A stretch of DNA of 64,000 bases from Ferrimonas sp. YFM (GTDB lineage Bacteria; Pseudomonadota; Gammaproteobacteria; Enterobacterales; Shewanellaceae): positions 4,388,839 to 4,452,838 of the forward strand of contig NZ_AP027368.1 in NCBI RefSeq assembly GCF_030296015.1, given 5' to 3'. Under the pieces are notes generated by a model. The model searched no databases, was not told the DNA's origin, and saw nothing but the letters and a program-made list of their open reading frames with translations. A program made the translations under genes and the position numbers. Of the stretch, positions 23,203 to 39,638 are shown piece by piece (positions within the stretch are counted from its first letter, which is position 1; the number at the start of each line of letters is the position of its first letter).

Positions 23203-23417
23203 CCTGTTAGTCCTTTGTCGTTATCTATCTCCCTAACCCGCCTAGCTTACTGCAAAAGACGGCAAATTAAACGATTGTTTGACTGAAAAACCGCCAACAG
23301 CAAATCCTACCAGTTGACGAAAAAGGGAACGAAAAGGGGAAAATCAATTCGAATTGAACACCGAAATGTGATCCGGCCACATTGTTGAATAAGGGAAGCT
23401 TGGATTACACTTACAAA

Positions 23418-23521
23418 AAATTGTGACCGAGCCTGGACGACCTAAGTGACCATATGGTTCCCAGGCCGTGGCAAATCTGCCACCAGGGTAGCTGCGAGAA
23501 ATCGAGCTACCTCCCGTGTTT
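23418..23521 (+). ncRNA. Moco riboswitch upstream of moaA
   Basis: A structured leader directly before moaA. Seen: GCCTGG (23431-23436) pairs with CCAGGC (23461-23466); inside it CCTAAG (23441-23446) and TATGG (23453-23457) form the canonical 11-nt tetraloop receptor; a hairpin GTGGCA/TGCCAC (23468-23483); and a stem GGTAGCT/AGCTACC (23487-23511) capped by CGA-GAAA-TCG, a GNRA tetraloop able to dock in the receptor. This is the known Moco RNA architecture of enterobacterial moaA leaders. A promoter TTGTTG-N18-TACACT (23382-23411) predicts a start near 23418. It should lower moa expression when molybdenum cofactor is plentiful. Confidence 0.88.
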
Positions 23522-23534
23522 GGAAAGGTGACAC

Positions 23535-24515
23535 ATGACACAGCTACACGACCGCTTTGGGCGGGAATTTCACTATCTACGTCTGTCCATTACCGACGCT
23601 TGTAACTTCAAGTGTCAGTACTGCCTGCCTGACGGCTACCGTCCCGACGGAAAACCCCGCTTCCTGACCCTGGATGAGATCCGCCGGGTCGTCACCGCCT
23701 TTGCCCAGGTGGGTACCCGCAAGATCCGCATCACAGGCGGCGAACCCACTATGCGTAAGGACTTCAGCGAGGTCATCGAGGTGGCGGCCAACACCCCAGG
23801 GGTCGATACCGTGGCCACCACCACCAACGGCTACCGACTGGCCGCCAATGCCCAGCGCTGGTTCGATCTCGGCCTCAGCCAGATCAACGTATCACTGGAC
23901 AGCATGGACGAAGGCCTGTTCCGCCAGATCACCGGCGACGGCCGCCAGCAGCTGGTGCTCGATGGCATCGAAGCCGCCCTCGAAGCGGGCTATCGCCGGG
24001 TGAAGATCAACGTGGTGCTGCTCAAGGACCTCAACGCCCAGCAATTGCCCCAGTTCCTCGAATATATCCGTCACCGCCGGGTGGACATCCGCTTCATCGA
24101 GCTGATGGAAACCGGACTGGGTCAGGAGTATTTCCAGAAACACCACATCTCCGGCCAGGTGATCAAGCAGCAACTGCTGTCCCAGGGCTGGAGCGAAGAT
24201 CCCCGGGGCCCGGACGATGGCCCTGCCCTCAACTTCAGCCACCCGGATTACGCCGGTCGCATCGGCCTGATCATGCCCTACGCCAAGGATTTCTGTGCCA
24301 CCTGCAACCGACTGCGGGTCTCCTCCATCGGTAAACTGCACCTGTGTCTGTTCACCGAGTGCGGCATCGAACTGAGGGATCTCCTGGGCCACGACGATCA
24401 CCAGCCCGAACTCATTGCCCGTCTCCATGAGCAACTCAGGCTCAAGGGGGCAACCCATCAACTGCATCAAGGCCTGACCGGGGTAACCCAGCACCTGGCC
24501 TCCATTGGCGGTTGA
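23535..24515 (+). CDS. moaA: GTP 3',8-cyclase MoaA
   Basis: First step of molybdenum cofactor synthesis, a radical SAM cyclisation of GTP. The N-terminal cluster motif is CNFKCQYC (Cys23, 27, 30) and the C-terminal GTP-binding cluster is CATCNRLR ... LHLC. The usual C-terminal Gly-Gly is present (SIGG). Length 326 is typical. The upstream riboswitch ends 13 bp before the ATG, and GGAAAGG serves as ribosome-binding site. Confidence 0.97.
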   Translation: MTQLHDRFGREFHYLRLSITDACNFKCQYCLPDGYRPDGKPRFLTLDEIRRVVTAFAQVGTRKIRITGGEPTMRKDFSEVIEVAANTPGVDTVATTTNGYRLAANAQRWFDLGLSQINVSLDSMDEGLFRQITGDGRQQLVLDGIEAALEAGYRRVKINVVLLKDLNAQQLPQFLEYIRHRRVDIRFIELMETGLGQEYFQKHHISGQVIKQQLLSQGWSEDPRGPDDGPALNFSHPDYAGRIGLIMPYAKDFCATCNRLRVSSIGKLHLCLFTECGIELRDLLGHDDHQPELIARLHEQLRLKGATHQLHQGLTGVTQHLASIGG

Positions 24516-35527: not shown

Positions 35528-38263
35528 ATGGCCCAGCTTCCCGAAAATCCCCTGATCCTCGTCGACGGCTCCTCCTACCTTTACCGTGCCTACCATGCGC
35601 CACCACACCTGACCAACTCCAAGGGGGAACCCACAGGAGCGGTCTACGGCGTAGTGAACATGCTGCGCAGCCTGATCCGTCAATTCAACCCCAGCCACAT
35701 GGTGGTGGTGTTCGATGCCAAGGGTAAAACCTTCCGGGATGACCTCTACCCCGACTATAAGGCACACCGCCCCCCCATGCCCGATGACCTGCGCAGTCAG
35801 ATTCAGCCTGTGCATGAGATCATCCGCGCCATGGGACTGCCTCTGCTGGTGGTGGAGGGGGTGGAAGCCGACGACGTGATCGGCACCCTGGCTATGCAGG
35901 CGGAAAAGGCGGGTCACAAAGTGGTGATCAGCACCGGCGACAAGGATATGGCCCAGCTGGTGACCGACAACATCACCCTGATCAACACCATGACCGACAC
36001 CGTGATGGACCCGGAAGGGGTGGTGAATAAGTTCGGTGTGGGGCCTGAGCTGATCATCGACCTGCTGGCGATGATGGGAGACAAGGTGGACAACATCCCG
36101 GGGCTGCCCGGTGTGGGTGAGAAGACCGCCCTGGCGATGCTGCAGGGGATCGGCGGCCTGGATGCCATCTATGGCGATCCCGATGCGGTGGCGACACTGG
36201 GCTTCCGCGGCGCCAAAACCATGCCCAAGAAGCTGCGCGACAACGAGAAGGAAGCCTTCCTCAGCTACCAGCTGGCGACCATTAAGCTGGACGTTCCCCT
36301 GAACCAGGAGATGGCCGATCTCAAGGTGATCGCCCCGGACCGCGACGCCCTGGTGAAACTCTATGGTGAGATGGAGTTCCGTCGCTGGCTCGCGGAAGTG
36401 CTGGACGGCGATAAGTCAGACACTGCCGAGGAGGCGGACACCACCAAAGCCAGCGAATTCGAGCATGAAACCATCCTGACCCAGGGACAATTGGACCAGT
36501 GGCTGGACAAGCTTCAGACGGCAGAGCTGTTCGCCCTGGATACCGAGACCACCTCCCTCAACTATATGGAGGCGGAGCTGGTGGGCCTGAGCTTTGCGGT
36601 GGACACCAAGCTGGGGGCCTACCTGCCTCTGGCCCACGACTACGAAGGCGCCCCGCAGCAACTGGACAGAGACGAGGTGCTGGCCAGGTTCAAGCCTCTG
36701 CTGGAAGACGCTTCCCGCAAGAAGGTGGGTCAGAACCTCAAGTACGACATGTCTGTGCTGGCCCGTTACGGCATCAGGCTGGAGGGGGTGGAGTTTGACA
36801 CCATGCTGGAGTCCTACTGCTTCAACTCCACCGCCGGCAAGCACAACATGGACGACCTGGCCCTCAAATATCTGAGCCACAAGACGGTTCACTTCGAGGA
36901 CATCGCAGGCAAAGGGGCCAAGCAGAAGACCTTCAACCAGATCCCCCTGGAGGAGGCCGCCCCCTACGCCGCCGAGGATGCGGTGATTACCCTGCAACTG
37001 CACCAGCATCTGCTGCCGAGGCTTCAGGAGCTTGAGGGCTGCCACAAGGTGTTCCGCGACATCGAGATGCCCCTGGTGCCCATCCTCTCCAGCATCGAAC
37101 GCCAGGGCGTGCTGCTGGATACGGATCTGCTGCATCAGCAATCCACCGAAATCGCCAATGTGCTCGACGCCCTGGAACAGCAGGCCCACGACCTGGCCGG
37201 GGAGAGCTTCAACCTCTCCTCCACCAAACAGCTTCAGCAAATTCTGTTTGAGAAACTGGGCTACCCGGTGCTGAAGAAGACCCCCAAGGGCGCCCCCTCC
37301 ACCGCCGAAGAGGTGCTGCAGGACCTGGCCCTGGATTACGAGCTGCCCAAACTGATTCTGGAGCATCGCAGCCTGGCCAAGCTGAAGAGCACCTACACCG
37401 ACAAACTGCCTTTGCTGGTCCAACCCAGTGGCCGGGTGCACACCTCCTATCATCAGGCGGTGACCGCCACCGGACGCCTCTCCAGCTCCGATCCCAACCT
37501 GCAGAACATCCCCATCCGCAGCGAACAGGGGCGACGCATTCGCCAGGCCTTTATCGCACCGGAGGGCTACAAGCTGCTGGCCATCGACTACTCCCAGATT
37601 GAACTGAGGATCATGGCCCACCTCTCCCAGGACAGGGGACTGCTGGACGCCTTTGCCCAGGGCAAAGACGTGCACCGGGCCACCGCCGCCGAGGTGTTTG
37701 GGGTTGGCTTCGATGAGGTCACCACCGAGCAGCGCCGTCGGGCCAAGGCGGTGAACTTCGGCCTGATCTACGGCATGTCCGCCTTCGGGCTGGCCAAGCA
37801 ACTGCACATCCCCAGAGGGGAAGCCCAGCAGTACATCGACATCTACTTCGAGCGTTACCCCGGGGTGAAGCGCTACATGGAAGACACCCGCAAACAGGCC
37901 CACGACGATCAGTATGTGGAGACCCTGTTTGGCCGCCGCCTGCACCTGCCGGACATCAACGCCCGCAACAAGATGCGCCAGCAGGCCGCAGAGCGCACCG
38001 CCATCAACGCCCCCATGCAGGGCAGTGCCGCCGACATCATCAAGCGGGCGATGATCAGCGTGTCCGACTACCTGACCAGACAGGACAAGGATGAGATCCG
38101 CATGTTGATGCAGGTACACGATGAACTGGTGTTTGAAGTGAAGCAGGAGCACGCCGACGACCACAGCCAGGCGCTGTGTGAGCTGATGGCCGGCGCCGCT
38201 CAGCTGGATGTGCCGCTGATTGCCGAAGCCGGCATCGGCGACAACTGGGATCAGGCCCACTAA
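35528..38263 (+). CDS. polA: DNA polymerase I
   Basis: A 911-residue repair and Okazaki-fragment polymerase with three domains in order: 5'-3' exonuclease (residues about 1-290, with [11 protein letters not shown] and GDKDMAQLV), 3'-5' exonuclease (about 315-510, intact [10 protein letters not shown], so proofreading is likely active), and polymerase (about 515-911) with motif [13 protein letters not shown], motif [14 protein letters not shown] and motif [11 protein letters not shown]. The ATG at 35528 follows the DnaA-box region. Confidence 0.97.
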
Positions 38264-38319: not shown

Positions 38320-38613
38320 GCCCTTGGGGTGTAAGTGAACTTTCATCACAGGGGCCCGACTCAACCACAAAGAACCCCGCCATTAGATCTGACGGATCCA
38401 CTCCCAGGATCGCCAACTGGATCGCAGATCACATTTTGACGACTTATTGCGGTAAGGCACCGACCAGGTAAACGAATGGATAATGAGACTTTATGTAGTT
38501 ATTGGATCAAAAAGCGTGGAATGTGGAGATTTTTGTCGATCAAGATCACAAAATTTCTCTTCCGGGACTGAATTCGCTTTTATAAAGCAACCTGGTTGGC
38601 TATGCTTTCGTCT
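38320..38613. other. Region between polA and Spot 42
   Basis: About 290 bp without a gene. A TCACA half-site at 38545-38549 lies where CRP control of Spot 42 would be expected, but the partner half-site is poor. -10 TATGCT is at 38601-38606. Confidence 0.5.
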
Positions 38614-38721
38614 GTAGGGTACAGAGGTAAGATGTTCTATCTTAACAAACCTTATTCGATCGCTCCCAGCGATCAGCCAAAATTTATGGCGCCCCGGTGA
38701 CACTTGTCACCGGGGTTTTTT
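38614..38721 (+). ncRNA. spf: Spot 42 small RNA
   Basis: The first 30 bases, beginning GTAGGGTACAGAGGTAAGAT, are those of E. coli Spot 42, and the gene is in the conserved place between polA and engB. The 3' end is a perfect hairpin CCCCGGTGACA / TGTCACCGGGG followed by six T. The -10 TATGCT sits 7 bases before the start. Spot 42 is an Hfq-binding RNA repressed by CRP-cAMP that tunes carbon metabolism genes; target identity in this organism is not shown. Confidence 0.96.
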
Positions 38722-38834
38722 CTTTTCTATGTCTGAAAACTTTCACCAAATTCCGACACTCACTGTACACTTTTTGCACACCCAAATTAGAGCAAATGCT
38801 TTAGTTTTTGTTGTTTAAAGGTTATGATGAGCTC

Positions 38835-38958
38835 ATAGGGTCGTCCCCCGGAATCCGAGTCCGGGCGACTCTCGTCTTGTTATCGTTGAAAAAGCTTCTC
38901 CCCAATTGAGCTTTTTACACGCCGGTGATGGTTATTCGTCGCCGGCTTTTTCTTTTTT
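38835..38958 (+). ncRNA. Candidate small RNA next to Spot 42
   Basis: A second RNA-like unit starts about 110 bp after Spot 42. It has a -10 TATGAT (38823-38828) with a weak -35, then three stem-loops: GTCG..CCCGGA / TCCGGG..CGAC (about 38840-38869), AAAAAGCT / AGCTTTTT (38889-38916) and a terminator GCCGGTGA / TCGCCGGC (38921-38946) with TTTTTCTTTTTT. There is no open reading frame of note. I do not recognise the family. It could also be a processed leader, but no gene follows on this strand. Confidence 0.6.
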
Positions 38959-39011: not shown

Positions 39012-39638
39012 TTACTCGGCCACCACCTCATCCTGGGGGTCCAGCCAACGACCGATATGGGCAATGGCTTCTCCGCGGCCGGTTCCTTTCAGTGACGAGA
39101 ACAGTTGCACCTTTATCTCACCACCAAACTCCTCCAGGGCAGACTTTACGTCTCTCAGGGTTTTCTGCTTGACCGCCTGCTTCAGCTTATCCGCCTTGGT
39201 CAGCAGCACCAGCACCGGCAACTCTGCGGCCACGGACCAGCGGATCATGTTAGCGTCCAGGTCCTTCAGTGGGTGACGGCAATCCATCATCACCACCACC
39301 CCGCGCAGACAGCGACGCTTCTCAAGATACTCAGCCAGGGCCTTCTGCCACTTCTTCTTCATCTCCAGGGGGACCTGGGCAAAACCGTAGCCGGGCAGAT
39401 CCACCAGACGGCGGTCATCCCCGACCTCAAACAGGTTGATCATCTGGGTACGACCCGGGGTCTTGGAGGTCTTAGCCAAACCTTTCTGATCGGTCATGGT
39501 ATTGAGGGCAGAGGATTTTCCCGCATTAGAGCGGCCTGCAAACGCAACCTCGATCCCGGTATCTGGCGGCAGAAAGCTGATGTCAGGGGCGCTGAGCATG
39601 TACTTGGCGCTGCGAAAATCGATGGCGGTATCGCTCAC
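39012..39638 (-). CDS. engB: Ribosome biogenesis GTPase YsxC/EngB
   Basis: A 208-residue GTPase needed for large-subunit ribosome assembly. Motifs: G1 GRSNAGKS (residues 35-42), G3 DLPGYGFA, G4 LTKADKL. Conserved neighbour of Spot 42 and polA (yihA in E. coli). Confidence 0.96.

Follow-up and report, generated by a model that had tools for sequence, protein, structure and literature searches.

A predicted small RNA gene family, previously unnamed, directly downstream of Spot 42 in Ferrimonas and related gammaproteobacteria

Organization of the polA–engB region

The analyzed window, a stretch of 64,000 nucleotides from Ferrimonas sp. YFM, harbors polA followed on the same strand by the Spot 42 gene (spf) and, directly 3' of it, by a predicted small RNA that ends ahead of the convergent engB gene (Table 1). 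A sequence-only reading of positions 38822–38958 had proposed a promoter-like −10, two internal hairpins and a separate terminator with a long T-run in the interval bounded by the terminators of Spot 42 and engB. All of these signals can be read directly in the sequence, and the reported absence of a reading frame was likewise borne out, as no forward-strand ORF of at least 40 aa in the ORF list of the window covers the small RNA. A terminator scan finds the terminators of both Spot 42 and the small RNA. The small-RNA promoter was not reported by a sigma-70 consensus scan, because its −35, separated from the −10 element by a 17-nt spacer, matches at only three of six positions.

Table 1 Features of the locus and other elements of the window
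Feature	Position	Strand	Basis or remarks
Molybdenum cofactor riboswitch	23413–23546	+	RF01055, 82.2 bits
polA	35528–38263	+	Neighbor 5' of Spot 42
Spot 42 (spf) RNA	38614–38724	+	Upstream neighbor; own terminator, stem 38691–38716; RF00021
Dyad operator TTAGAGCAAATGCTTTAG (consensus TTAGAGYAANTRCTTYAA)	38787–38804	+	18 bp, centered about −40, overlaps −35
−35-like hexamer TTTAGT	38800–38805	+	Sequence; weak, overlaps operator
−10 element TATGAT	38823–38828	+	Sequence; −10-like hexamers at same position in homologues
Small RNA (predicted)	38835–38958	+	About 118–124 nt; from A38835 (predicted start) through the T-run of the terminator
Hairpin 1	38837–38872	+	Fold; sequence-variable 5' hairpin
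Unpaired conserved linker CGTCTTGTTATCGTTG	38873–38888	+	Between hairpins 1 and 2
Hairpin 2	38889–38916	+	Exposed C-rich loop TTCTCCCC at 38896–38903; proposed seed
Intrinsic terminator of small RNA	38921–38958	+	Stem 38921–38946, then TTTTTCTTTTTT to 38958
engB	39012–39638	−	ORF; convergent downstream neighbor; identified by sequence and synteny with PMC3295665

Spot 42 of this strain matches the Rfam model RF00021 with 57.2 bits (E 3e-10, model match 38604–38724), below the gathering score of 80, and would therefore be missed by automatic annotation. Ferrimonas and E. coli Spot 42 share their first ~30 bases. Three Ferrimonas genomes (L020, L022, L026; G001, G010, G011) carry an extra hairpin-forming insertion of ~45 nt after GTAGGGTACAGAGGTAAGATGTTCTAT. 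In f15/g19 genomes (L128–L130, L132) Spot 42 is strongly rearranged, with a different hairpin in place of the AAGATGTTCTATCTT hairpin, and the RNA downstream of it keeps its core.

For the small RNA, no Rfam 15 family reached its gathering score in the window or in 20 homologous and comparison loci. Spot 42 is the only Rfam match in these intergenic regions, and its model gives no match to 38835–38958, in line with the earlier failure to link the unit to a named family. Neither a description of the RNA nor its core sequence in a bacterial context was found in the literature searched; supplementary tables of Shewanella sRNA surveys (e.g. PMC5471319) lay outside that search, and a predicted, nameless entry may therefore exist there. 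Sequence comparison indicates a real and previously unnamed sRNA gene family.

Only about 110 nt separate the start of the small RNA from the Spot 42 terminator, as would suit a 3' extension or double terminator reached by read-through from Spot 42, with no separate gene. Spot 42 nevertheless has a terminator of its own, and the operator and −10 keep a fixed spacing from the small RNA whereas their distance from Spot 42 is variable, which makes such read-through very improbable. The proposal of a distinct RNA is instead supported by a conserved promoter and operator, a structure and a terminator belonging to the unit itself, present in single copy and always 3' of Spot 42. Two traits of trans-acting Hfq-type sRNAs, an own promoter (recognized by conservation only) and an intrinsic terminator with a T-run, are present. 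The unit is most likely a trans-acting regulatory RNA of ~120 nt, predicted to be transcribed from its own promoter.

Fold, covariation and distribution

The predicted minimum free energy of the small RNA is −45.6 kcal/mol, compared with a mean of −30.9 (sd 3.25) for dinucleotide shuffles (z −4.54; 0/200 shuffles as low). Covariation was scored at 28 pairs in 38 Shewanella-type sequences that had been aligned without regard to structure. In this set 95.1% of cells are paired, falling to 24–45% when the partner is slid, and double changes occur at 13 pairs, yielding 71 doubly changed cells vs 26.3 in shuffles (0/500). The signal is carried by the homologous hairpin 1 (8/13 pairs) and terminator (5/9 pairs), hairpin 2 being invariant within the Shewanella-type group. 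Between groups, hairpin 2 pairs flip from A-U in Ferrimonas to U-A in Shewanella-type sequences, and four of the positions stay paired in 117/117 sequences, the fifth in 110/117. The C-rich loop of hairpin 2, UUCUCCCC, is near-invariant across homologues, and in the linker TTGTTATCG is invariant in Ferrimonas and TTGTT in 22 sequences. Preserved hairpin pairing together with the near-invariant loop and linker leads us to conclude that evolution keeps a three-hairpin RNA exposing a C-rich loop.

The sequence-only reading had staked the unit on conservation of its hairpins and had suggested looking for compensatory base changes in relatives; such changes were found in hairpin 1 and the terminator, as were the A-U/U-A flips of hairpin 2, and a DNA search located the unit in 14/14 Ferrimonas genomes, always after Spot 42. 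Assignment of these genomes to Ferrimonas agrees with eight named records of the genus, whose sequences are identical to theirs. A covariance model of the core matches the window RNA with an E value of 7.9e-15, as a single copy in its own genome, where the loop-plus-stem pattern also occurs once. In the GTDB family, 143/152 genomes have exactly one match, and across the order 39/394 genomes are matched. Among named genomes, the pattern of upstream box (the operator) plus loop was recovered in Shewanella, Ferrimonas, Rheinheimera, Arsukibacterium, Alkalimonas, Alishewanella and an uncultured Aeromonadaceae, along with a few unrelated chance matches. Spot 42 lies within 700 nt upstream in 122 of the 140 distinct sequences matching the exact pattern. 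Aeromonas-like genomes hold a degenerate form that retains the box and has CUUUUUCCC or CUUCUUCCC as its loop. The comparisons leave little doubt that Ferrimonas, Shewanella-type and Rheinheimera-type bacteria share a separate RNA gene that is structured and present in single copy. A core sRNA occurring once in almost every genome of the family has thus apparently been missed by Rfam, in a group whose model genus, Shewanella, has relatively few characterized sRNAs.

An operator shared with a DUF1302 operon

The dyad operator is kept in all 14 Ferrimonas homologues of the small RNA and also across genera, and its position over a poor −35 is as expected for an activator or repressor site. Most of its other sites in the 14 Ferrimonas genomes precede a DUF1302 gene, and two genomes have one next to a FadL-type gene. 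A strict search of 58 family genomes returned 29 matches vs one for the reversed control; 12 of them stand at the small RNA, 17 upstream of DUF1302 genes and none elsewhere. The DUF1302 gene heads an operon with a DUF1329 gene, a YCF48-type protein gene and an RND/MMPL transporter gene, the latter three named by sequence and gene order. In Pseudomonas putida, PP_0765/PP_0766 (DUF1302/DUF1329) are needed for Tween-20 metabolism and have been proposed to form a transport system (PMC10866462), and the DUF1302-DUF1329-RND operon is putatively one for lipid or ester transport. In genome G000 (C1 L309 3617–10594, −) the operon has a leader of about 200–300 nt starting at the small RNA's operator, and the operator also precedes the operon in G021, a genome in which the small RNA was not found. 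At the FadL-type gene (L282 and L301, in G001 and G011), an almost perfect palindrome (AGAGTAAATACTCT in L282), perhaps the ideal site of the regulator, adjoins a variant of the operator.

Several regulators were considered for this site and rejected. The FadL and DUF1302 neighbors prompted a comparison with the fatty-acid repressor PsrA, whose known Pseudomonas motif GAAAC-N4-GTTTC does not fit the operator; no matching motif was found in the literature searched. The GacA site, TGTAAG-N6-CTTACA, agrees at only 3/6 bases of its first half-site. A LuxR-type gene with a loop-matching Shine-Dalgarno sequence shares its operon with the gene for a multihaem-cytochrome-like lipoprotein and shows no connection with the DUF1302 operon, which in the genomes examined has no LuxR-type neighbor.

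The chance that the small RNA and the DUF1302 operon are under lipid-linked regulation appears from these sites to be even or slightly below. Because the operator is common to only one other unit, it provides a direct way to test whether an sRNA adjacent to Spot 42 is linked to the uptake of lipid-like carbon, as well as a handle on the function and the regulator of the DUF1302/DUF1329 transport system.

Candidate targets, proposed mechanism and comparison with known systems

The hairpin 2 loop is complementary to GGGGAGA. Located 2–9 nt before an ATG, GGGGAGAAG is enriched over control in Ferrimonas; the gene start where it is found most often is that of an acyl-CoA dehydrogenase, called ivd/liuA by sequence, in 11/13 Ferrimonas genomes checked. 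This match comprises nine bases with flanks that differ among genomes, and one more Ferrimonas genome has an eight-base match. The predicted loop-ivd duplex reaches −18.5 kcal/mol, against a background of 53 ORF starts of the window with a mean of −8.0 (sd 3.8) and a best value of −17.8. Ferrimonas DUF1302 gene starts carry GGGAGAA or GGGAGAGAAG, and one has the full GGGGAGAAG. Eleven-base loop matches near an ATG were rejected as targets, as they lie inside genes. The LuxR-type gene contains GGGGAGAAG in four Ferrimonas genomes (G000, G005, G008, G009), its Shine-Dalgarno sequence being exactly complementary to the loop; in G000 (L508 8616–11324, −) it lies directly 3' of the gene for a lipoprotein with weak multihaem-cytochrome matches. 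The same pattern marks a related MFS transporter in two Shewanella-type genomes and methionine gamma-lyase in one, and the lyase start also fits in one Ferrimonas genome, cases too few to support a claim. The ivd site is absent from the Shewanella- and Rheinheimera-type genomes examined, so that targets are not conserved across the family: of the seed expected in a trans-acting Hfq-type sRNA, the loop is conserved and the ivd match is confined to Ferrimonas. Moreover, GGGGAG Shine-Dalgarno sequences are selected for ribosome binding anyway. An anti-Shine-Dalgarno mechanism is hence likely, whereas the individual targets stay tentative.

Strong structure and conserved unpaired motifs would also suit an RNA that mainly sequesters a protein, as a sponge or decoy like CsrB/C, with no mRNA pairing, and CsrC of E. 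coli is encoded at a distance of one intergenic region (PMC3295665). CsrB and CsrC, however, display many GGA motifs in their loops, compared with one GGA in the window RNA, whose invariant portion is a loop rich in C and of anti-Shine-Dalgarno type; no Csr family was matched in Rfam. We therefore give the decoy function hardly any credence and retain mRNA pairing.

According to the proposed pairing mechanism, a regulator would bind the −40 operator common to the small RNA and the putative lipid-transport operon, switching the small RNA on or off with that carbon supply. Loop UUCUCCCC of hairpin 2 would then pair with GGGGAGA-type Shine-Dalgarno sites of catabolic mRNAs, ivd/liuA in Ferrimonas and perhaps the DUF1302 operon itself, and block their translation, probably with Hfq, so that the small RNA would act beside Spot 42 in carbon-source choice. 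Taken as a whole, a trans-acting sRNA with its own promoter, regulation through the −40 operator and a loop silencing catabolic mRNAs is a likely account of the conserved features. The carbon-control role first suggested for a tandem partner of Spot 42 gains from the operator being shared only with a putative lipid-transport operon and from the catabolic nature of the candidate targets; the link itself is one that we infer. A more far-reaching version is doubtful and put forward tentatively: the new and widely conserved sRNA family and Spot 42 might form a two-RNA carbon-control module, in which one lipid- or ester-responsive regulator drives just the sRNA and the DUF1302-DUF1329-RND operon, and the sRNA, through its UCUCCCC loop, exerts feedback on the catabolism of lipids and branched-chain acyl-CoA.

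The sequence-only reading needs one correction, in that a precedent exists for an RNA in tandem with Spot 42. VSsrna24, reported as limited to Vibrionaceae, is a real RNA of about 60 nt encoded 262 nt 3' of spf within the corresponding intergenic region, and is glucose-repressed, with expression opposite to that of Spot 42 (Hansen et al. 2012, PMC3295665). The window RNA could be its diverged orthologue, since both lie directly 3' of spf and before engB and expose an unpaired UCUCCC ahead of the terminator. VSsrna24 nonetheless has CUCUCCCRUU ahead of a single terminator hairpin, without operator box or hairpins 1 and 2, compared with about 120 nt, three hairpins and the loop UUCUCCCC in the window RNA. 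Vibrio-type sequences accordingly show CTCTCCCRTT, a single terminator hairpin and no box, and the core model finds no match with E <1 at these loci except a doubtful 0.26 in L157, a null limited by the weakness of the model on Rheinheimera-type homologues as well. Furthermore, both elements coexist in one intergenic region of two f10/g14 genomes, where the box precedes a unit of its own and a VSsrna24-like core lies several hundred nt beyond it. Orthology is thus unlikely; the small RNA and VSsrna24 probably represent distinct genes that occupy one location, perhaps with a similar anti-Shine-Dalgarno action. In those two genomes (L149, L150) the operator unit comprises GCTCTTCTTRTTTATCTTA and a terminator, without a CCCC loop, and may represent a third RNA type at this location. 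The position after Spot 42 apparently holds different sRNAs in different gammaproteobacterial lineages.

Like Spot 42 (RF00021), the window RNA is a small terminator-ended RNA next to polA and a proposed repressor of secondary carbon-source genes; it differs in its separate promoter and seed, and the two share no similarity in sequence or structure. RsaE, sX13 and LhrC are sRNAs with C-rich anti-Shine-Dalgarno loops. The loop of the window RNA would, like theirs, mask G-rich ribosome-binding sites, although sequences and hosts are unrelated and the likeness is one of description, not of alignment.
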